Numbered from the stretch's first letter, positions 44,457 through 57,564 are shown. The stretch: DNA of 57,564 nt from Terriglobia bacterium (GCA_036496425.1 DASXLG010000074.1:1-57564), one strand, 5' to 3'. Numbers and translations are program-made. The notes: generated by a model from the letters alone, not told the origin.

Positions 44457-46862
44457 TCACAGAACCTGAACGTCGAAATTATGGCCTTCCCACTCGCCGT
44501 TGGCCCAACGGAGGGTGAATTCCAGCTTCGTTCCCGGCGCCAGCCCGGTTGTGGGAATATCGACGAAGCAGACACCTACATTGGTCGGAATGGTCAGATT
44601 CTCTTTCTGTGTAGTCCACACACTGGACGTCCACACCACAGTTGCAGGCGTCAAGAGTTCGATGCGGAGCGTAAACCCGGCCGGAACGGAAGTACTCTTC
44701 TGGTTGAACCGCCACACGACGTATTTAACCGTTTTCTTATCGATCAGATAACGCTGTGCTGTTTGCGGCGGCATGTCGAACACGCGTCCATCCCGGAGAG
44801 AACGGAGCAACTTGATGTATTCCGCATGGGCCCACATGAGGGGCATGGCTGAGCCCGACGGCTTGCCATTGAAGAGTTCGAGTTGCGGCATATCTTCTGC
44901 GTCCCAGACCTGTTCAGGAAGGAATCCTCCCGGACTGGTTTGCGCTTCCAGGACGTGAAGCAGCCGCTCTGCCGCGGTCATGTCGCCGCGGGCAATTTCG
45001 TAGTGGGCGCGCTCGCCGGCGAGCAGCGGCCAGCCGCGTCCGGTACCGGTGCCGTCAAATGGACTGCCGTCGCTGTGTTCGCCGTAACCGTCCTCGTTGT
45101 AGCGATGCCAGACCGGGCCGGTCTTTGTGTCGCTCTTCAATGTGGCATCAATGAGGCGAACCGTGTTCAGGATGCGTGGATCGTCGGCCGCACGCAGTCC
45201 GAATCGGACCAATGCCAGCGCATCGGGGCTGACCACGTTTGCCGCCCTTTCGGAACTCTGGTCCGGGGTTCGATTCTTGATTGGAACAAAACCGAGATAC
45301 GGCGAAGCCGCATCGGCGACATCCGCGGATCCGATACGCACATAATATCCGTCAACTCCGTGCTGCCTGCACAGGCTGGAGTCGTTGACGTAAGTCCATC
45401 TTTCGATGTTCCCATTCCAGATGTCTGCCGTTTCGCGCAGATACGCGGCGGTGCCGGACTCCCCGCTTTCATCGGCGAAGTCTGCCGCCGCCAGGAGCGC
45501 CGCGATTTCGACGGCAAGTGTGAACGGGGAATATCCGGCGTCTTCCTCCCAACGATCTTCGGGAGTCACCGGCCCATTGCAGACAAGATACGTTGCCGCC
45601 CGGCGCACTGCCGGCCAGACATCCAGCTTGTGGAGACCGCCTGCGCGGCGGAGCGCGTCCGCCAGGAGTATTGGAAAGGCCGTTTCATCCATCTGTATCC
45701 CGGTCCAATAGGGTGTGCCTTCCAGCCACATATTCTGCGGCCAATGACCGTCGGGTTCCTGCGTTGAGAGAAGGTAAACCAGCACCTGATATGCGCCTTC
45801 GAGGTCGCCAGAAGCCAGTAACGCGCCCGCACCTTCGACTTGATCGCGAGTCCAGACCAGATGGTAGCCGCCGAGATCGTTGTCGCCCTTCGCGAAGCCC
45901 CAGGGAATCGAAGGGCTTGCGATGATACCGCCGGGAATATCTTTCGATTCGCACGCTTTGAGCAGCGCCGTACTCACCCGATAGTAGTTGATGCCGTTCG
46001 ACGACTTGTCGAGCGGCTCGAGCTTCATTTGATAATGCTGCCAGTCTTCAACGTACATCTCAACGGCGTCCTCAAACGGCTGGATGAGTGAACTCAAGGC
46101 CTGTTGGCCGGCCTCCGAACCGTCGCGTCCAAAGCCGAGAGCCAGCGTGAATTCGCCATTCGAGGGAAGCGAGATTTCTCCGGTGAGCGCAATATTTCCA
46201 TCGAGGGCTTCGTCGAAGAACCACGTCATGCGGTTATGCGTGCTGATGTCCTGCCAGCCGTCGCTGAAGCCCACATAGCCGCAACTCATTGCGGAAAAAG
46301 ATGTCGAACAGGCGAGCGCGAGGGCGGTTGAGTTTCGTTGCGCGAAAAGCATCGGCATGCCCTTGTGCCGGCCGGTCCAGCCGCGGTTTCCGAATCCCTG
46401 GTTCTGGAGATGCGGCGCCAGCAGCGCATACACGTGATAGTCCTGCATTGCGCCCTGCAACGCTTCAAAGCGGATATGCTGCAGCACGACATCGCGGCGG
46501 GGATCCGCGATCACGGTTTTATGTAACCGGTAGCGGCCCTCTTTGCAGGTATTCGTCAATAAATAGCCGGGCACACCCGGCGCGATCGGAGTAGTGGTGC
46601 TCTCGGTGTCCCGTTTCTCCTCGGAGAAGAAGCGGGAACCGTCCGTGATGAGCAGTCCAAGGTCGCGTGTGTTCGGCTGGTCGATAAAAGGAAAATAAAC
46701 TTCATCGAGGATGCCGTGCGAAATCGTGAACCACACGCGGCTGTTCGTCCCTGCCGAAGTTCCTGCACCTGTTTTGGCGCTGGATGTCCATGTCGGAGAG
46801 ATGCCGGGGCGGCCGGGAGGAACAGAATTAGTCATTTCCATCCACGATCCCACATCGCGCAT
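44457..46862 (-). CDS. GH15 glucoamylase-like glucan 1,4-alpha-glucosidase
   Basis: 801 residues from the first ATG (46862); ATGs at 46841 and 46835 are also possible. The N-terminal beta-sandwich (about 20-280) has VWFTISHGILDEVYFPFIDQ. The (alpha/alpha)6 barrel follows with GGYHLVWTRDQVEGAGALLA, HWPQNMWLEGTPYWTGIQMD and a late PSGSAMPLMWAHAEYIKLL. These match bacterial glucoamylases that release glucose from starch or maltodextrins. A C-terminal extension (about 690-801) resembles a starch-related beta domain. No signal peptide is visible, so it may act on internal glycogen. It is divergent from a DUF4159 gene 35 bp away. Confidence 0.92.
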   Translation of the reverse strand: MRDVGSWMEMTNSVPPGRPGISPTWTSSAKTGAGTSAGTNSRVWFTISHGILDEVYFPFIDQPNTRDLGLLITDGSRFFSEEKRDTESTTTPIAPGVPGYLLTNTCKEGRYRLHKTVIADPRRDVVLQHIRFEALQGAMQDYHVYALLAPHLQNQGFGNRGWTGRHKGMPMLFAQRNSTALALACSTSFSAMSCGYVGFSDGWQDISTHNRMTWFFDEALDGNIALTGEISLPSNGEFTLALGFGRDGSEAGQQALSSLIQPFEDAVEMYVEDWQHYQMKLEPLDKSSNGINYYRVSTALLKACESKDIPGGIIASPSIPWGFAKGDNDLGGYHLVWTRDQVEGAGALLASGDLEGAYQVLVYLLSTQEPDGHWPQNMWLEGTPYWTGIQMDETAFPILLADALRRAGGLHKLDVWPAVRRAATYLVCNGPVTPEDRWEEDAGYSPFTLAVEIAALLAAADFADESGESGTAAYLRETADIWNGNIERWTYVNDSSLCRQHGVDGYYVRIGSADVADAASPYLGFVPIKNRTPDQSSERAANVVSPDALALVRFGLRAADDPRILNTVRLIDATLKSDTKTGPVWHRYNEDGYGEHSDGSPFDGTGTGRGWPLLAGERAHYEIARGDMTAAERLLHVLEAQTSPGGFLPEQVWDAEDMPQLELFNGKPSGSAMPLMWAHAEYIKLLRSLRDGRVFDMPPQTAQRYLIDKKTVKYVVWRFNQKSTSVPAGFTLRIELLTPATVVWTSSVWTTQKENLTIPTNVGVCFVDIPTTGLAPGTKLEFTLRWANGEWEGHNFDVQVL

Positions 46863-50811: not shown

Positions 50812-50960
50812 TTAAGATCTTATCGGCACGTGAGCATATTTCATTAGCGGCCGGTTAAATCCCGGATCGATTTGACAGCTTGCTTATTAAACGTCACCTT
50901 CTTATGATCCCGATCGTCCCGTACGTAAATTGTTTGCCAACTCAATTCCAGAGGAGATAT

Positions 50961-51341
50961 ATGGCTGAAATCACACAAGCTCAATTCCTGCAACGTTACG
51001 GCAACCTCATGGTGCAAATCTGGGGAATGCCTTCTCTGTTGGACCGTTTCAAAAAAGAACCCACTGCGGTCTTGAAGGAGCATGGGTTGGACACTGGAAA
51101 AGCCTCGGTAACCCTTCTGCAACCAGGCACACCGAACGCCCTCGGTATTAATGATTCGACAGCGGAAAGCGCCTACCAGCTGTGGGTTGAAGGTCAGAAG
51201 AAAGGGAACATCCCGTTTTATTTTGTCTCACAACCACCCGAAGGTACCGGCAGCGAGTCGCTCTCGGACAGCGAGTTGATGGCGGTTGCGGGCGGCGCGT
51301 TGAGCATCAGCTCCTGCTGCTGCACACCCTGCTGCTGCTAA
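50961..51341 (+). CDS. NHLP-type RiPP precursor with Cys-rich core
   Basis: 126 residues from the ATG at 50961, which has a strong ribosome binding site (AGAGGAG). The leader (about 1-112) follows the nitrile-hydratase-like leader pattern: WGMPSLLDRFKKEPTAVLKE, HGLDTGKASVTLLQ and a terminal LSDSELMAVAGG with the double-glycine cleavage site (111-112). The core, residues 113-126, is ALSISSCCCTPCCC, with six cysteines as two triplets around Thr-Pro plus serines. Such precursors are modified (for example to thioethers or azoles) and exported by peptidase-ABC transporters. No modifying enzyme, NHLM transporter or second precursor is recognised nearby, so it is an orphan here. Confidence 0.85.
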   Translation: MAEITQAQFLQRYGNLMVQIWGMPSLLDRFKKEPTAVLKEHGLDTGKASVTLLQPGTPNALGINDSTAESAYQLWVEGQKKGNIPFYFVSQPPEGTGSESLSDSELMAVAGGALSISSCCCTPCCC

Positions 51342-51449: not shown

Positions 51450-52811
51450 CTACTTTACTTTTCTGAATTTCCAACCGTACATCAATCCGCCATAAAAATT
51501 AAACCATCTTGCCGCCTCGCGGTCCTTGAACGGATAGTCGGCGCCCAGCCGCCGCGCTGTGGCCAGTCCGGACACAAAGCACGTTTCCTGGCTGTTGAGC
51601 AAGGTGTGGGCGCCGCAGTGCCAGCTTCGCCTCTTCCCCTGAATGAACTTGAACAGATTGATCACGACAGCAACATGAAACACATCGTGCACGATGTGTT
51701 GAAACCACCATCTCTTGATGATCTTTTGCGGATCGATTTCGCTGACTGGGTTGTAGGTTACCAGGCATGGCTTGTCCGACTTCTTCGCCCAGGGCTGCTG
51801 GTTATGCATGATGTATGTGATTTCGTAATTGTCCGGTCTCGCCCCGTATTGTTCGATGTAGTTACTTCTCGTATCGAGCGGCTCCGTCTCGTTTACCGGC
51901 AGCACGGAGGCGTCGTGGTGAACCACGGTGTGATTGTGCAGTTCACTTTCATAACGTATGGAGGACAGCAGGAAGGTTTCGAGGAAGCCCGGCTTATCGA
52001 GCATCATGAGGGTCTGGTTGGCGTTGCAGGCGAAGATGACCTGATCGAATTCCTCCGTTTGTCCGTTCATGTCTTCGACGGTTACTTTCGATCGCTGCCG
52101 GTGAACTTTCCTTACCGCGCGCCCGAGATAGATCTTGTCGCGAAACGGCTCCGACATTGCCTGATAGATCCGCCTCGTGCCCTGGTCCCAGGTCTGCATC
52201 GGCGTGGCCGTTTCAATATCGAAAAAATCCAGGTAGCGTGCAAACATAGAGGCCGGCATGTCGAAGACATTCGTGGCCATCAGAAAATTCACGAACAGCG
52301 GTTTGAGGATCTTGTAGCGAAAGCCGCCGGAGAATCGGCCGAGGTTCAGCAGCGTTCCCATGCTGACATAGTTGAACGGATTCAGCATGCCAAGTAGTTT
52401 TGATCTCGTTTTACTGAGAACATTGATTGCTTTCAGAAACCGGAGCAGTTTCTGAAACTTTTCGATCTCCGGCAGAAGCTCCTTGCGAATCCTGGAGTTG
52501 AAGTCGTGCGCGTAAAGATCGCCGCGATACCTCACGGCGTAGCTGAACCGTGTAGGGACGAGCGGAATCCCATGTTCCTGCATGAATTGGACGTAGTTGT
52601 GGTACACAGTCGGAATGCAGGCTGTGACAGAGATGTCAAAACACACGGAACGGCCATCATCCTGCGGCATGTCCACAGTAATCGCGTTGCCGCCCAGCCT
52701 GTCATTGGCTTCAAAAAGCCGGATATCGAATCGATCCGGATGCCTGCTCAACGCCCATGCGGCCCCGAGTCCGGCGACACCGCCGCCGACGATTGCGATT
52801 TTCTGGGGCAC
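51450..52811 (-). CDS. FAD-dependent amine-oxidase-like oxidoreductase divergent from the sterol operon
   Basis: 453 residues from GTG at 52811, chosen because AGGAGG lies five bases upstream; a longer frame to 52928 would run into the sterol operon start. The Rossmann FAD motif is IAIVGGGVAGLGAAWALSRH at residues 3-22. Further motifs are RLFEANDRLGGNAITV, DQVIFACNANQTL and a C-terminal FAD contact LNSQETCFVSGLATARRLGA. It resembles COG2907-type predicted FAD proteins, not squalene epoxidase. Starts 26 bp apart on opposite strands suggest shared control with the sterol genes, so it may oxidise or reduce a sterol or isoprenoid. That is inference. Confidence 0.8.
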   Translation of the reverse strand: MPQKIAIVGGGVAGLGAAWALSRHPDRFDIRLFEANDRLGGNAITVDMPQDDGRSVCFDISVTACIPTVYHNYVQFMQEHGIPLVPTRFSYAVRYRGDLYAHDFNSRIRKELLPEIEKFQKLLRFLKAINVLSKTRSKLLGMLNPFNYVSMGTLLNLGRFSGGFRYKILKPLFVNFLMATNVFDMPASMFARYLDFFDIETATPMQTWDQGTRRIYQAMSEPFRDKIYLGRAVRKVHRQRSKVTVEDMNGQTEEFDQVIFACNANQTLMMLDKPGFLETFLLSSIRYESELHNHTVVHHDASVLPVNETEPLDTRSNYIEQYGARPDNYEITYIMHNQQPWAKKSDKPCLVTYNPVSEIDPQKIIKRWWFQHIVHDVFHVAVVINLFKFIQGKRRSWHCGAHTLLNSQETCFVSGLATARRLGADYPFKDREAARWFNFYGGLMYGWKFRKVK

Positions 52812-52837
52812 CTGCTCCTCCTCGAGATACTGAGCTG

Positions 52838-53401
52838 ATGGGCTACATTTTTGAACCCGGCATTTTACAGCAAATCGCGAGAGACGCTCTTTCGAAAAAC
52901 CCGGCGATGGAAGACCTCGTTCCTTCAATTGTCGCGGAACTCTACAAACGCTATCCGGGCCACATCAATACGACTCCCGAGTGGGTTTTCAACAATGCCG
53001 GCGGCGCGATGGGCGCCATGTACATCCTGCACGCGTCGATATCGGAATACGTCATGATTTTCGGCACTCCTCTGGGTACCGAAGGGCATACAGGACGGTT
53101 CGCGGCGGATGATTACTTCATTATCCTGAACGGCGAGCAGTGGGCGTTTGAGCCGGGCCAGTTCGCGCCTGAAATCTACCGGCCTGGCGACATGCACCAT
53201 TTGCGCAGACGCCAGGCGAAACAATACAGGATGGCGGGAGGGTGTTGGGCGTTAGAATATGCCCGCGGTGTTATACCGGCGATGCTGCCGTTCGGAGTCG
53301 CGGATACATTTACCAGCACGTTAGACTTCAGAACCCTCATTCGTACCTTGTGGTTATATGCGACGAGCGCAGTTCGCGAATTGCTGCACGGAAAGATCTG
53401 A
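52838..53401 (+). CDS. ERG2: ERG2/sigma-1-receptor family sterol C8-C7 isomerase
   Basis: 187 residues. The ATG at 52838 gives MGYIFEPGIL, the family start, without the N-terminal membrane helix of eukaryotic homologues. The ERG2/SIGMAR1 pattern is unmistakable: EWVFNNAGGAMGAMYILHAS, ISEYVMIFGTPLGTEGHTGR, DDYFIILNGEQWAFE and WALEYARGVIPAMLPFGVAD, with TSTLDFRTL. Glu140, in WALEYARG, aligns with the catalytic/ligand-binding Glu of the family. ERG2 moves the sterol 8(9) double bond to 7(8). It heads the sterol operon, 15 bp before the SDR gene. Bacterial members are rare. Confidence 0.93.
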   Translation: MGYIFEPGILQQIARDALSKNPAMEDLVPSIVAELYKRYPGHINTTPEWVFNNAGGAMGAMYILHASISEYVMIFGTPLGTEGHTGRFAADDYFIILNGEQWAFEPGQFAPEIYRPGDMHHLRRRQAKQYRMAGGCWALEYARGVIPAMLPFGVADTFTSTLDFRTLIRTLWLYATSAVRELLHGKI

Positions 53402-53416
53402 AATCACGCAACGGCG

Positions 53417-54445
53417 ATGACGACGTTAATTACAGGAGCAAGCGGTCATCTCGGCGCCAATCTCGTCCGCAGGCTGCTCAATGACGGGCAAACGGTCCGC
53501 GCGCTCGTCCGCCGGGGCAGCAACAACGCGGCCTTGGACGGTTTGAATGTCGAACGGATCTATGGCGATCTTCGCGAGCCCGTGCCTGTCGCCGCGGCGG
53601 TCCGCGGATGCCGTCAGATTCACCATTGCGCGGCCTTGCTCTCGACGACCACAGGCCGCGAGCGGGAAATCTTCGACTGCAATGTGATCGGCACGCGCAA
53701 CCTGTTGCGGGCCGCGCTCGATGCCGGAGTATCCCGTGTCGTTGTTTCAGGCTCGTTAAGTGCCGTTGGTCATGTGGATGGCCGGCCGAGCGACGAGACT
53801 GTGCCTTTCTATCCGTTCGAGAAACTGCCGCCGTATTCGCACACGAAAGCGGGCGTGGAACACGAATGCCTCAAAGCCGCAGCCGATGGCCTGGACGTGG
53901 TCATCGCGACGTCCTGTGCGATCATCGGTCCCAATGATTTCAAGCCCTCGCGCATGGGAAAGACCCTGGTGGATTTTTCCCTCGGCAAGTTGCGCGCATA
54001 CATTCCGGGCGGTTTTACCTTTGTTTCCGCAGCCGACATGGTCGAAGGGCATATGCTCTGCATGGAAAAAGGCCGCAGGGGTCAGAAGTATATTTTCAGC
54101 ACAGAGTTTCTGACTGTCGACGAACTGATGGCGATTTTCGAACAGGTCACCGGCCACAGGCGCCCGCGGTTCCGGCTGCCCGCGCCGCTCATGGCCGGCA
54201 TCGCAGAGGTTTCGAGCTTCGTGCTGACGAATTTCTTTCCCGGCAGGGCGCAGCGCTTTACACCGGCGGCCGTGCGATTCCTGCGAATGCAGCGGAAGGC
54301 CGACTCGAGCAAGGCGATGCAGGAACTCGGCTACCGTCCGACCTCCATCGCCCAGGCGGTCCGTGAAGCCCACGAATGCTTCGTCCGGCGCGGTGTCATA
54401 CCGGCTCCGGCGCGCGTGCTGGTTTCACGGCCCCGGGAGTTGTAG
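53417..54445 (+). CDS. sdmB: Extended SDR, sterol 4-alpha-carboxylate 3-dehydrogenase (SdmB-like)
   Basis: 342 residues. Nucleotide-binding TLITGASGHLGANLVRRLL starts the protein. The catalytic set is Ser in VVVSGSLSAVG (about 111-115), Tyr140 and Lys144 in PPYSHTKAGVEHE. The C-terminal half has GGFTFVSAADMVEGHMLCME, typical of 3-beta-hydroxysteroid dehydrogenase/NSDHL-like and SdmB proteins. In Methylococcus capsulatus SdmB completes C-4 demethylation after SdmA oxidises the methyl group. The gene lies 15 bp after ERG2 and 2 bp before CYP51. Another epimerase or dehydrogenase role is possible, but the neighbours strongly favour sterols. Confidence 0.85.
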   Translation: MTTLITGASGHLGANLVRRLLNDGQTVRALVRRGSNNAALDGLNVERIYGDLREPVPVAAAVRGCRQIHHCAALLSTTTGREREIFDCNVIGTRNLLRAALDAGVSRVVVSGSLSAVGHVDGRPSDETVPFYPFEKLPPYSHTKAGVEHECLKAAADGLDVVIATSCAIIGPNDFKPSRMGKTLVDFSLGKLRAYIPGGFTFVSAADMVEGHMLCMEKGRRGQKYIFSTEFLTVDELMAIFEQVTGHRRPRFRLPAPLMAGIAEVSSFVLTNFFPGRAQRFTPAAVRFLRMQRKADSSKAMQELGYRPTSIAQAVREAHECFVRRGVIPAPARVLVSRPREL

Positions 54446-54447
54446 CT

Positions 54448-55800
54448 GTGACGACTGCAACGGAAGCCAGGAAGCTTCCGCCTGAACTCCGTGGCGGACT
54501 GCCGTTTTTCGGTCACGCCATGGAGTTTCATCGCGATCCCGCCGGCCTCCTGCGGCGCGGCCGCGACCGGTTTGGTGAAATTTTCTCCTTTCTGCTGGCA
54601 GGCAAGCTTGTCACCGTACTCACAGGGCCCGAGGCGAACGAGGCTTTCTTTCATGCGCCGGATGATCAGTTGAGCGCGAAAGAAGCCTACCAGTTCACGG
54701 TGCCGATCTTCGGTAAAGGCATCGCCTACGACGTCAGTCCCGATGTGATGAGCGAGCAGTTGGGCCTGCTCTTTCCCGCCTTGCGCGATCAGCGGTTGCA
54801 GACCTACGCCCGGTTCATGGCGGAAGAAGCGGATGCGTACTTTGACAACTGGGGCGAGCAGGGAGAAGCCGATCTCCTCGTAGCCATGAATGAGTTGACA
54901 ACGTTCATTGCGAGCCGCTGTCTGATCGGTCATGAATTCCGTCAGAATCTTTCGACGGAATTTGCTCATCTGTATCACGATCTGGAGGGCGGCCTGAACC
55001 TCGTTGCATTCTTCAAACCGGACATGCCGCTGCCTTCATTCAAGCGCCGCGATCAAGCTCGCGTCCGCATGGCCGAGCTGATTTCGCAGATCATCGCCAC
55101 CCGCCGCAGCACCGGTGTGGAAGGCGAGGATTTTCTGCAGACCTTGATGACGGCGCGTTATTCCGACGGCAGGGCGCTGACCGACGACGAAATTACCGGA
55201 CTCCTGCTGACCGTGATTTTTGCCGGGCAGCATACCAGCGCCGTCCTGGCGACCTGGACTGGAGTTCTGCTTCTTCAGCACCGCCAGTATCTGCCGGGCA
55301 TTCTTAAGGAACAACAGGAAGTCCTGAACGGCAGCCGGAATATGACGCTCGACGCGTTGAGGCGGCTCAGCGCTCTGGAACGCGCCATCAAGGAAGCGGA
55401 ACGGCTGCGGCCGCCCTTGATTATGCTGATGCGGAAAATCGTGCGTGACTTCACGTACCGCGGCTGCCGTGTCCCCGCAGGCGGGTTGCTGATGGTTTCA
55501 CCCGCGGTTTCGCACCGCCTCCCGGAAGTGTTCCAGAATCCGGACGCATATGACCCCGGCCGCTTCGCGCCTGGCCGCGAGGAAGACCGGAAAAGTTCTT
55601 ATACACTGATCGGATTCGGTGGAGGCAGGCATCGTTGTATCGGTCTGACGTTTGCCCAGCAGCAGGTCAAAGTGATCTGGAGCGTGATCCTGCAGCATTT
55701 CGATGTGGAATTGGTGAAACTTCAACATGAGCCGGACTACTCGACCTTCGTCATCGGTCCGCGTCCTCCATGTTTGATTCGCTATCGGAGAAAGGCATGA
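54448..55800 (+). CDS. cyp51: Sterol 14-alpha-demethylase CYP51
   Basis: 450 residues from GTG at 54448, two bases after the SDR stop and eight after GGGAG. CYP51 diagnostics are present: the B-C loop YQFTVPIFGKGIAYD (81-95), I-helix FAGQHTSAVLATW (258-270), ExxR E316-R319 before RPPLIMLMRKIVR, and the heme loop FGGGRHRCIG with Cys397. There is no membrane anchor, as in soluble bacterial CYP51 proteins. It removes the 14-alpha methyl of lanosterol-type sterols by three oxidations using electrons from a redox partner; no ferredoxin gene is seen nearby. The stop overlaps the Rieske gene start as ATGA. Confidence 0.96.
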   Translation: MTTATEARKLPPELRGGLPFFGHAMEFHRDPAGLLRRGRDRFGEIFSFLLAGKLVTVLTGPEANEAFFHAPDDQLSAKEAYQFTVPIFGKGIAYDVSPDVMSEQLGLLFPALRDQRLQTYARFMAEEADAYFDNWGEQGEADLLVAMNELTTFIASRCLIGHEFRQNLSTEFAHLYHDLEGGLNLVAFFKPDMPLPSFKRRDQARVRMAELISQIIATRRSTGVEGEDFLQTLMTARYSDGRALTDDEITGLLLTVIFAGQHTSAVLATWTGVLLLQHRQYLPGILKEQQEVLNGSRNMTLDALRRLSALERAIKEAERLRPPLIMLMRKIVRDFTYRGCRVPAGGLLMVSPAVSHRLPEVFQNPDAYDPGRFAPGREEDRKSSYTLIGFGGGRHRCIGLTFAQQQVKVIWSVILQHFDVELVKLQHEPDYSTFVIGPRPPCLIRYRRKA

Positions 55801-56876
55801 GCACTCAACCTCATCTTCCGGCATTCCATGAAGCTCGAAACCCGCGCCAGAAAGCGCGTTCGGCCGGGCTCCATCCGGATTACTGGTACGCCGTCGAGTA
55901 TGACGCCGCCGTGAAGCCCGGCCGCGTTGTCGAGGTTATATTCTGGAACCGGTCGATAGCCCTGTTCCGCGGAATGGACGGCAAGTTGCGCGCGTTGGAA
56001 AATCGCTGCGCTCACCGGCAGTTGAAGCTTTCGGCCGGCGAGGTCGAGGGCTGCAATCTGGTCTGCGCGTATCACGGATGGGGATACAACGAAGAAGGGC
56101 GCGTGGTTCAAATACCCCACGATCTCTTCGGAAGGGACATGCCGTCGTTCAGGGTGCCGTCGTACCCGGTGAAAGTCCGCTATGGCCTGATCTGGATTTT
56201 TCCGGGTAATCCGGCGCTCGCCGATCAACGGCAGATTCCAGAGATACCGGAATTAAAAGGCGACCGGCAGTGGGCGTGCGTTCCGATCGATTTCAAGTGG
56301 CGGGCGCACCATTCGATGATCATTGATAACGTGAGCGACTTCACGCATGCTCACCTGCACCGCAAATACCGCCCCTTCATCGACGCAAAACTCATAAAGT
56401 GCGAGATGGTGGGCGAGAAGGTTTTCGTGAGCTATAACACGAGGATCGGGACCGGACGTTTCTCCGGTCTTTTTGTCGATCGTGATCGGGTCGATACGGA
56501 TTTCATCGAGCTCTGCCACGACTACCCATACCAATGGTCGAATACAGGCGGAAAGATAAAGCACTGGTGCTTCGTATTGCCTATTGACGAGCGAACGAGC
56601 CGCGTGTTCTTTCTGTTTTATTTTGACGCGCTGAAAATTCCTTTCACCTCGTTACGCATTCCTCAATGGCTGATGAAGCCGTTGCTGAAAATTGCGAACG
56701 AGATATCCATCAAGCCTCTCCTGCGCCAGGACGGATTTGCCGTCGAAGCGGAACAGCAGGGCTACGATACTCATTTCGATGCGCCGCTTGCCGAACTCAA
56801 TCCCGCCGTCAATTTGTTTCAACAACTCACTATCCGCAAGTGGGAAGAGCACGTCGCCAGTGACCGGCGCTCTTGA
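55797..56876 (+). CDS. sdmA: Rieske non-heme iron oxygenase, sterol C-4 demethylase (SdmA-like)
   Basis: 359 residues from the ATG at 55797. The Rieske centre is CAHRQLKLSAGEVEGCNLVC AYHGWGY in two parts: C71-x-H73 and C90-x2-H93. The mononuclear iron site is SMIIDNVSDFTHAHLHRKYR with Asp181, His184 and His188. It has the length and context of SdmA, which oxidises the C-4 methyl group stepwise to a carboxylate. Animal DAF-36/Neverland 7-desaturases are also Rieske enzymes but usually have an N-terminal membrane helix, absent here. Reductase partners are not visible. It overlaps both CYP51 and the cyclase gene. Confidence 0.9.
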   Translation: MSTQPHLPAFHEARNPRQKARSAGLHPDYWYAVEYDAAVKPGRVVEVIFWNRSIALFRGMDGKLRALENRCAHRQLKLSAGEVEGCNLVCAYHGWGYNEEGRVVQIPHDLFGRDMPSFRVPSYPVKVRYGLIWIFPGNPALADQRQIPEIPELKGDRQWACVPIDFKWRAHHSMIIDNVSDFTHAHLHRKYRPFIDAKLIKCEMVGEKVFVSYNTRIGTGRFSGLFVDRDRVDTDFIELCHDYPYQWSNTGGKIKHWCFVLPIDERTSRVFFLFYFDALKIPFTSLRIPQWLMKPLLKIANEISIKPLLRQDGFAVEAEQQGYDTHFDAPLAELNPAVNLFQQLTIRKWEEHVASDRRS

Positions 56877-57564
56877 TCGCGGCGTCAATCATCTGAATTC
56901 GCAACAGCGTGAAAACGGCTGCTGGGAAGGGGAGATGGTCTGGTGCACGATGATTCTCTCCCAGTACGTCATCGTTCAACATGTTGCCGGGAGGACCTTC
57001 GATGAACAAACCCGGGAGCAGATGGTTCGATATTTCCGCGTCAGCCGCACGCCCGAAGGTGTCTGGGGTCTGCATCCCGAATCGGGCGGCTATGTCTTCT
57101 TCACGACGTTGGCTTATATTGCGCTTCGGTTGCTTGGCATAACCGCGGACGACCCGCTTGCCGCAACGGCCCGGCAATGGCTGCGCGGACAAAAGGGCGG
57201 AGTGCTCGCAATTCCGAGCTGGGGCAAGTTCTGGCTCGCCACCGTAGGACTGTACGGATATGAGGGGGTGAATCCGGTTCCGCCGGAAATGTTTCTGCTT
57301 CCAAAATCGCTGCCATTGCATCCCCACCGTTATTACTGCCACACCCGCCTGATCTATATGGGAATGGCCTATCTCTATGGATCGCGTTGCAACGCAGATC
57401 TCGGGCCGATTCGGAACGATTTGCGCCGGGAGCTCTACGAGACCCCTTACGAGGCAATCGACTTTTCGGCTTGGCGGCACACTATAGCCGAATCGGATCT
57501 CTATGTGTCGCCGACCCGATGGCTGCGGATGGCCTATGATTTGCTGCGCGTTTACGAGCGGGTT
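56861..57564 (+). CDS. osc: Oxidosqualene cyclase, N-terminal part (truncated by window edge)
   Basis: Starting at GTG (56861, overlapping sdmA by 16 bp), about 234 residues are present. The sequence LDRGVNHLNSQQRENGCWEG is the first QW-like repeat. It continues with GGYVFFTTLAYIALRLLGI, IPSWGKFWLATVGLYGYEGV, PPEMFLLPKSLPLHPHRYYC and RLIYMGMAYLYGSR. The PSWGKFWL and LLPxxLPxHPxR-xxC blocks are those of oxidosqualene cyclases rather than squalene-hopene cyclases. The product (lanosterol or cycloartenol) depends on C-terminal residues beyond the window. The enzyme supplies the sterol skeleton for the upstream genes. Confidence 0.95.

Follow-up and report, generated by a model that had tools for sequence, protein, structure and literature searches.

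The view that bacterial sterol makers mostly modify lanosterol only in part, repeated in an earlier reading of the DNA described here (made from the sequence alone; below, the sequence-only reading), is outdated: E. salina, using SdmABC, and other myxobacteria make cholesterol (PMC10202945). In Calothrix, a 21-kb cluster combines an oxidosqualene cyclase (OSC), CYP51, SdmAB and C-8 isomerisation, and acidobacteria are named among the carriers of C-14 and C-4 demethylation genes (PMC10202945). Sponge symbionts from ten phyla, including Acidobacteriota, hold ERG24-CYP51-LSS clusters, several of them with ERG2 (PMC9531527). Nannocystis has an isomerase of the EBP type (PMC10152446), and Methylotuvimicrobium is said to carry a C-8 isomerase (PMC13277303). 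Given these reports, the bacterial sterol parts and the idea of a delta7 route are already known.

The locus presented here is a fuller variant of this known bacterial pathway, and it includes an ERG2-type isomerase, which is very rare in bacteria. The window, that is, the whole stretch of DNA analysed, is an entire contig of 57,564 bp (C74) from a metagenome-type bin (MAG) of 6.16 Mb in 407 contigs, 95% complete and with 4.2% contamination. At its right end (52838-57564) five plus-strand genes stand in a row, nearly overlapping (Table 1), and these are very probably the principal operon for sterol synthesis in a bacterium that also makes hopanoids and whose phylum is presumed to be Acidobacteriota.

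Table 1. Features at the right end of the window (positions counted from its first base).
Feature	Position	Strand	Basis
Amino_oxidase-type flavoprotein, divergent from the operon	51453..52928	-	PF01593 (5.7e-20); link to sterols by position only
ERG2/sigma-1-receptor-family protein, predicted delta8-delta7 sterol isomerase, 187 aa	52838..53401	+	PF04622
SdmB-like NAD(P)-dependent sterol C-4 decarboxylase/3-ketoreductase, 342 aa	53417..54445	+	NF052578
CYP51 sterol 14alpha-demethylase, 450 aa, GTG start	54448..55800	+	P450 profile and PDB matches
SdmA-like Rieske C-4 methyl oxygenase, 359 aa	55797..56876	+	NF052579
Oxidosqualene cyclase (OSC), N-terminal 235 codons, runs to contig end	56860..57564	+	TIGR03463

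Calothrix sp. NIES-4105 likewise unites C-8 isomerisation with OSC, epoxidation, CYP51 and SdmAB at a single locus, but it is a cyanobacterium and its cluster spans 21 kb (PMC10202945). The sponge-symbiont clusters are also operon-like, some with ERG2, and are known from Acidobacteriota hosts and to have spread horizontally; however, their core is ERG24-CYP51-LSS with no SdmAB annotated, whereas here the C-14 reductase is unlinked and SdmAB lies inside the operon (PMC9531527). Myxococcota (E. salina, S. amylolyticus) have OSC, CYP51, C-14 reductase, SdmAB and downstream double-bond editing in common with the host (PMC10202945, PMC12004948), but possess a C-24 reductase, of which none was found in the host. 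The EBP isomerase of Nannocystis is unrelated to the ERG2 of this operon (PMC10152446). Within the host phylum, genome G320 (L046) carries adjacent sdmB-sdmA-cyp51-sqe-osc, with OSC, CYP51, SdmA and SdmB 46-65% identical to those of the operon; it differs in gene order, in having its squalene epoxidase (32% identical) within the cluster, and in having no ERG2. The sequence-only reading considered the acidobacterial placement notable, and the locus is indeed rarer and fuller than usual; it is not the first of its kind, in view of Calothrix (PMC10202945) and the sponge-symbiont clusters with ERG2 (PMC9531527). In the literature searched, no description was found of a non-sponge acidobacterium with ERG2, SdmAB, CYP51 and OSC joined in one operon, although prior surveys may list such loci.

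The gene families were named by Pfam and NCBIfam profile search, which returned E-values of 1.6e-82 (ERG2_Sigma1R), 1.2e-98 (SdmB model), 2.4e-61 (P450), 1.7e-121 (SdmA model) and 2.2e-100 (OSC model), so that chance matches are excluded. All five genes lie where the sequence-only reading had placed them, on the same strand and in the families it had named, and the OSC, CYP51, Rieske and ERG2 motifs it had quoted occur in the translations. Its gaps of 15 and 2 bp and overlap of 4 bp were also recovered, but not its final overlap of 16 bp, which measures about 17 bp with the OSC start (near 56860) uncertain. The divergent flavoprotein gene, whose listed limit is a TTG frame limit and whose true start is probably near 52810, possibly has a promoter region in common with ERG2. 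Further upstream, a short open reading frame (50880-51338, plus strand) adjoining a DevA-type ABC ATPase gene ends in SISSCCCTPCCC after GG; it matches the TOMM nitrile-hydratase-like leader family TIGR04351 weakly (31 bits against a cut-off of 65), and may possibly encode a RiPP precursor.

The ERG2 protein is a full-length match to its profile (276 bits, positions 22-210 of 210), and its best PDB matches are sigma-1 receptors (2e-35). In an alignment with human sigma-1 (from the PDB) and yeast ERG2, it holds the residues ADDYF and HHL..AKQY, which are ERG2-type, unlike those of the receptor; it also has the Glu140 motif, and is predicted to be a delta8-delta7 sterol isomerase. The yeast sequence used matches PF04622 along almost the whole profile (316 bits), but identities to it serve as a lead only; at 54% to yeast ERG2 against 50% to an ERG2 from Candidatus Dadabacteria, they settle nothing on origin. 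Fungal and animal ERG2/sigma-1 proteins carry an N-terminal membrane helix, whereas the protein from the window has no hydrophobic N-terminal window and starts at the soluble domain. The helix is typical of the eukaryotic members, but the profile match, by which the protein was classified, does not need it. Structure prediction from a two-sequence alignment reached a pLDDT of 36 and was set aside.

The two C-4 demethylation proteins score below the NCBI equivalog cut-offs of 600 bits (SdmB 331, SdmA 405), for which reason they are called SdmB-like and SdmA-like. For SdmB the margin over the HpnA model (252 bits) is moderate, while the next Rieske model for SdmA reaches only 33 bits, 12 times lower. 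SdmA carries the Rieske CxH..CxxH and mononuclear iron NxxDxxHxxxxH motifs; against plasmids it finds only generic Rieske dioxygenases at 25-34% identity, and against the G320 cluster SdmA and SdmB reach 65% and 55%, respectively.

The CYP51 frame opens at 54376, upstream of the GTG start. The protein contains the B-C loop YQFTVPIFGKGIAYD, the I-helix AGQHTS and the heme-cysteine motif FGGGRHRCIG, and its best 56 PDB matches are all CYP51s except one unlabelled P450. By these PDB scores, named CYP51s reach 196-408 bits and the first clearly different P450 141 bits, which bears out the CYP51 identity given in the sequence-only reading. The top match, 7jj1 (407 bits, 43% identity), is taken here to be the CYP51 of Methylococcus capsulatus, an organism that resembles the host in having SdmA, SdmB and CYP51 homologues (the best NCBIfam and PDB matches). 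The CYP51 of M. capsulatus is fused to a ferredoxin; in that of the window no fused ferredoxin was found.

The cyclase continues in frame on the 5.8-kb contig C96 (L003 5778-4504, minus strand), which holds the only further OSC-type fragment of the host genome. TIGR03463 is covered at positions 2-227 on the window and 230-634 on C96, and the joined protein of 658 aa shows no gap at the junction when aligned with four other bacterial OSCs. The join rests on four shared bases and protein continuity: the two ends have only GGGT in common, the last base of the window differs, and the frame stays open through the overlap. Two residues before the catalytic Asp the protein has a valine (the Val453 equivalent), as in human lanosterol synthase. 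Since valine at this position accompanies lanosterol production (PMC10152446), lanosterol is the expected product. Convergent with the OSC on C96 lies a flavoprotein gene whose best PDB match is the squalene monooxygenase 6c6n (79 bits, the next at 41), and which is, on this similarity, assigned as squalene epoxidase. The window and C96 together thus hold an OSC, a squalene epoxidase and at least one linked modifying gene, the combination by which a bacterial sterol cluster is recognised; the linkage of the epoxidase to the operon depends on the join. Rightward extension, which the sequence-only reading had suggested, therefore completed the OSC and yielded the epoxidase, and the genome also provided a C-14 reductase, but no clear C-24 reductase.

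That C-14 sterol reductase, on contig C180 and unlinked to the operon, shares 66% identity across 364 aa with MaSR1, whose structure is known (4QUV). A second PF01222 protein is encoded on contig C170, and its motifs suggest a plant-type delta7-reductase (DHCR7/DWF5). Between an SDR gene and this reductase gene lies a gene whose product joins a P450 to two cyclic-nucleotide-binding domains (L009 4189-6354, plus strand). The hopanoid cluster, with its squalene-hopene cyclase (SHC), is located on contig C7, separate from the sterol genes. Two zinc alcohol dehydrogenases, encoded next to the C96 sterol genes (L003 2178-3230) and within the C7 hopanoid cluster (L004 15542-16597) respectively, are 77% identical, and could reflect a shared step or a duplicated cassette. 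Among the PF04116 matches examined in the host genome no clear C-5 desaturase was found: those on C2 and C92 are short and by eye unlike ERG3, and those on C154 and C405 lie on near-duplicate contigs with a CpaB-like gene that are judged foreign. The PF01565 matches inspected as DHCR24 candidates are by eye of the GlcD, MurB or lactone-oxidase types. A search of the host genome for a sterol methyltransferase, run with no positive control, found none.

From the enzyme families read in the sequence, substrates, an order of steps and an end product can be proposed. The epoxidase and the OSC would convert squalene via oxidosqualene to lanosterol; CYP51 would then carry out 14-demethylation, after which the unlinked C-14 reductase would turn the 14-demethyl diene into a delta8 sterol. 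SdmA and SdmB would remove one or both C-4 methyls oxidatively, and ERG2 would move the delta8 double bond to delta7, giving sterols of the cholesta-7,24-dienol type. The C170 reductase may afterwards remove the delta7 bond. Most likely, the host would thus make C-4- and C-14-demethylated delta7 sterols from lanosterol, alongside hopanoids.

It is conceivable, if less probable, that the operon gives only 4-monomethyl, 14-demethyl sterols as in methanotrophs, with ERG2 having another role or acting at another position. M. capsulatus SdmAB takes off one C-4 methyl only, in contrast to the route proposed for this operon, and E. salina SdmAB requires SdmC; Calothrix SdmAB alone, however, strips both C-4 methyls (PMC10202945). 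Besides, ERG2 is the first gene of the operon and retains the fungal ADDYF/HHL features.

A binning or assembly error, by which the window or its sterol part would belong to another bacterium or to a eukaryote, is improbable, even though the bin is contaminated and ten family relatives lack both OSC and ERG2. Two short near-duplicate contigs, C154 and C405 (L062, L063), with CpaB-like and sterol-desaturase-family genes, do look foreign and are probably bin contaminants from another phylum; together with the contamination estimate, they cast some doubt on the unlinked parts of the pathway, most of all on C170. The sterol genes, however, share one contig with 52 kb of other bacterial genes, densely packed and intron-free across the 57.5 kb. 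A glucoamylase-like gene in the window (44460-46862) is 73-77% identical in two same-genus genomes, in one of which the next gene of the window is also nearby (69%). Between the sterol part and the remainder of the contig, GC (0.58 vs 0.57) and tetranucleotide composition (r 0.92) match. C74, C96, C170 and C180 also resemble one another in composition (r 0.89-0.97). In GC and tetranucleotide profile, the sterol part and contigs C96, C180 and C170 fit in with the rest at r 0.86-0.97, and the two contigs judged foreign by content reach 0.69-0.88 with the sterol contigs, a comparison that is modest evidence because the contigs are short. The OSC, moreover, groups with same-phylum OSCs (support 98/98 in a 13-row tree). 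Eukaryotic contamination, which the sequence-only reading had named as a possible objection, is thereby answered by gene density, the same-genus neighbour gene and composition. Assignment to Acidobacteriota is suggested by a Soli_TIGR03435 gene and a large carboxypeptidase-regulatory/TonB-like protein (the latter recognised by eye) on C180. The sequence-only reading is borne out as to its enzyme families, the operon and a host of acidobacterial type.

A reading of the cyclase as an SHC or some other triterpene cyclase, in a cluster for modified hopanoids, might be suggested by the C7 cluster and the relation of SdmB to HpnA, but it is already largely refuted and highly implausible. The two halves of the cyclase score 337 and 601 bits against TIGR03463 vs 277 for the true SHC on C7, and the protein has DCTAE (HRWPVSDCTAEAL) unlike the DDTA of SHC. 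The same tree places it in the OSC clade (support 100/100), together with human LSS and the bacterial OSCs and distinct from the host's own SHC; a grouping inside SHCs, which the sequence-only reading had named as refuting, is not seen. We know of no role in hopanoids for squalene epoxidase, CYP51 or C-14 reductase.

The distribution of the sterol genes is patchy. ERG2 occurs in one of 396 genomes of the phylum, the host itself, and in 0/10 family relatives. Full-length or joined OSC scores were obtained in four of the 396 (the host, G320, G178 and G129), a few others having short fragments only; in the ten relatives no OSC was found, their best matches lying in the SHC score range. When 84,980 species genomes were scanned with two patterns, a method that undercounts because it requires exact short peptides, a single additional ERG2 came up (50% identity), from a Candidatus Dadabacteria MAG that has an OSC as well; Calothrix sp. 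NIES-4105 gave none. Searches of viral contigs and plasmids found no ERG2. This patchiness suggests horizontal gain, probably as a block, given that OSC and ERG2 are both absent from the other sampled family members. The OSCs of G178 and G129 lie in single frames with a squalene epoxidase (L047 8079-11564, minus strand, 1162 aa; L048 6989-10438, plus strand, 1150 aa), which makes them candidate bifunctional enzymes in the phylum of the host; a brief literature search found no description of such a fusion. In Candidatus Dadabacteria J088, an 800-aa frame (L045 4269-6668, plus strand) holds a squalene epoxidase followed by a squalene/phytoene synthase, directly upstream of an OSC.

These observations touch on which organisms were the first to make complex sterols and on what steps moved between bacteria and eukaryotes, a question that bears on the reading of sterane fossils. 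A bolder proposal, offered tentatively, is that a presumed non-sponge acidobacterium makes delta7 C-4-desmethyl sterols beside hopanoids through bacterial SdmAB and a helix-free, eukaryote-type ERG2, maybe from a fungus-like source. For the ERG2 step bacterial homologues are hardly known, and a short, helix-free bacterial ERG2 beside OSC and CYP51 offers a point at which its history can be tested, as well as a handy sigma-1/ERG2 fold for biochemistry.
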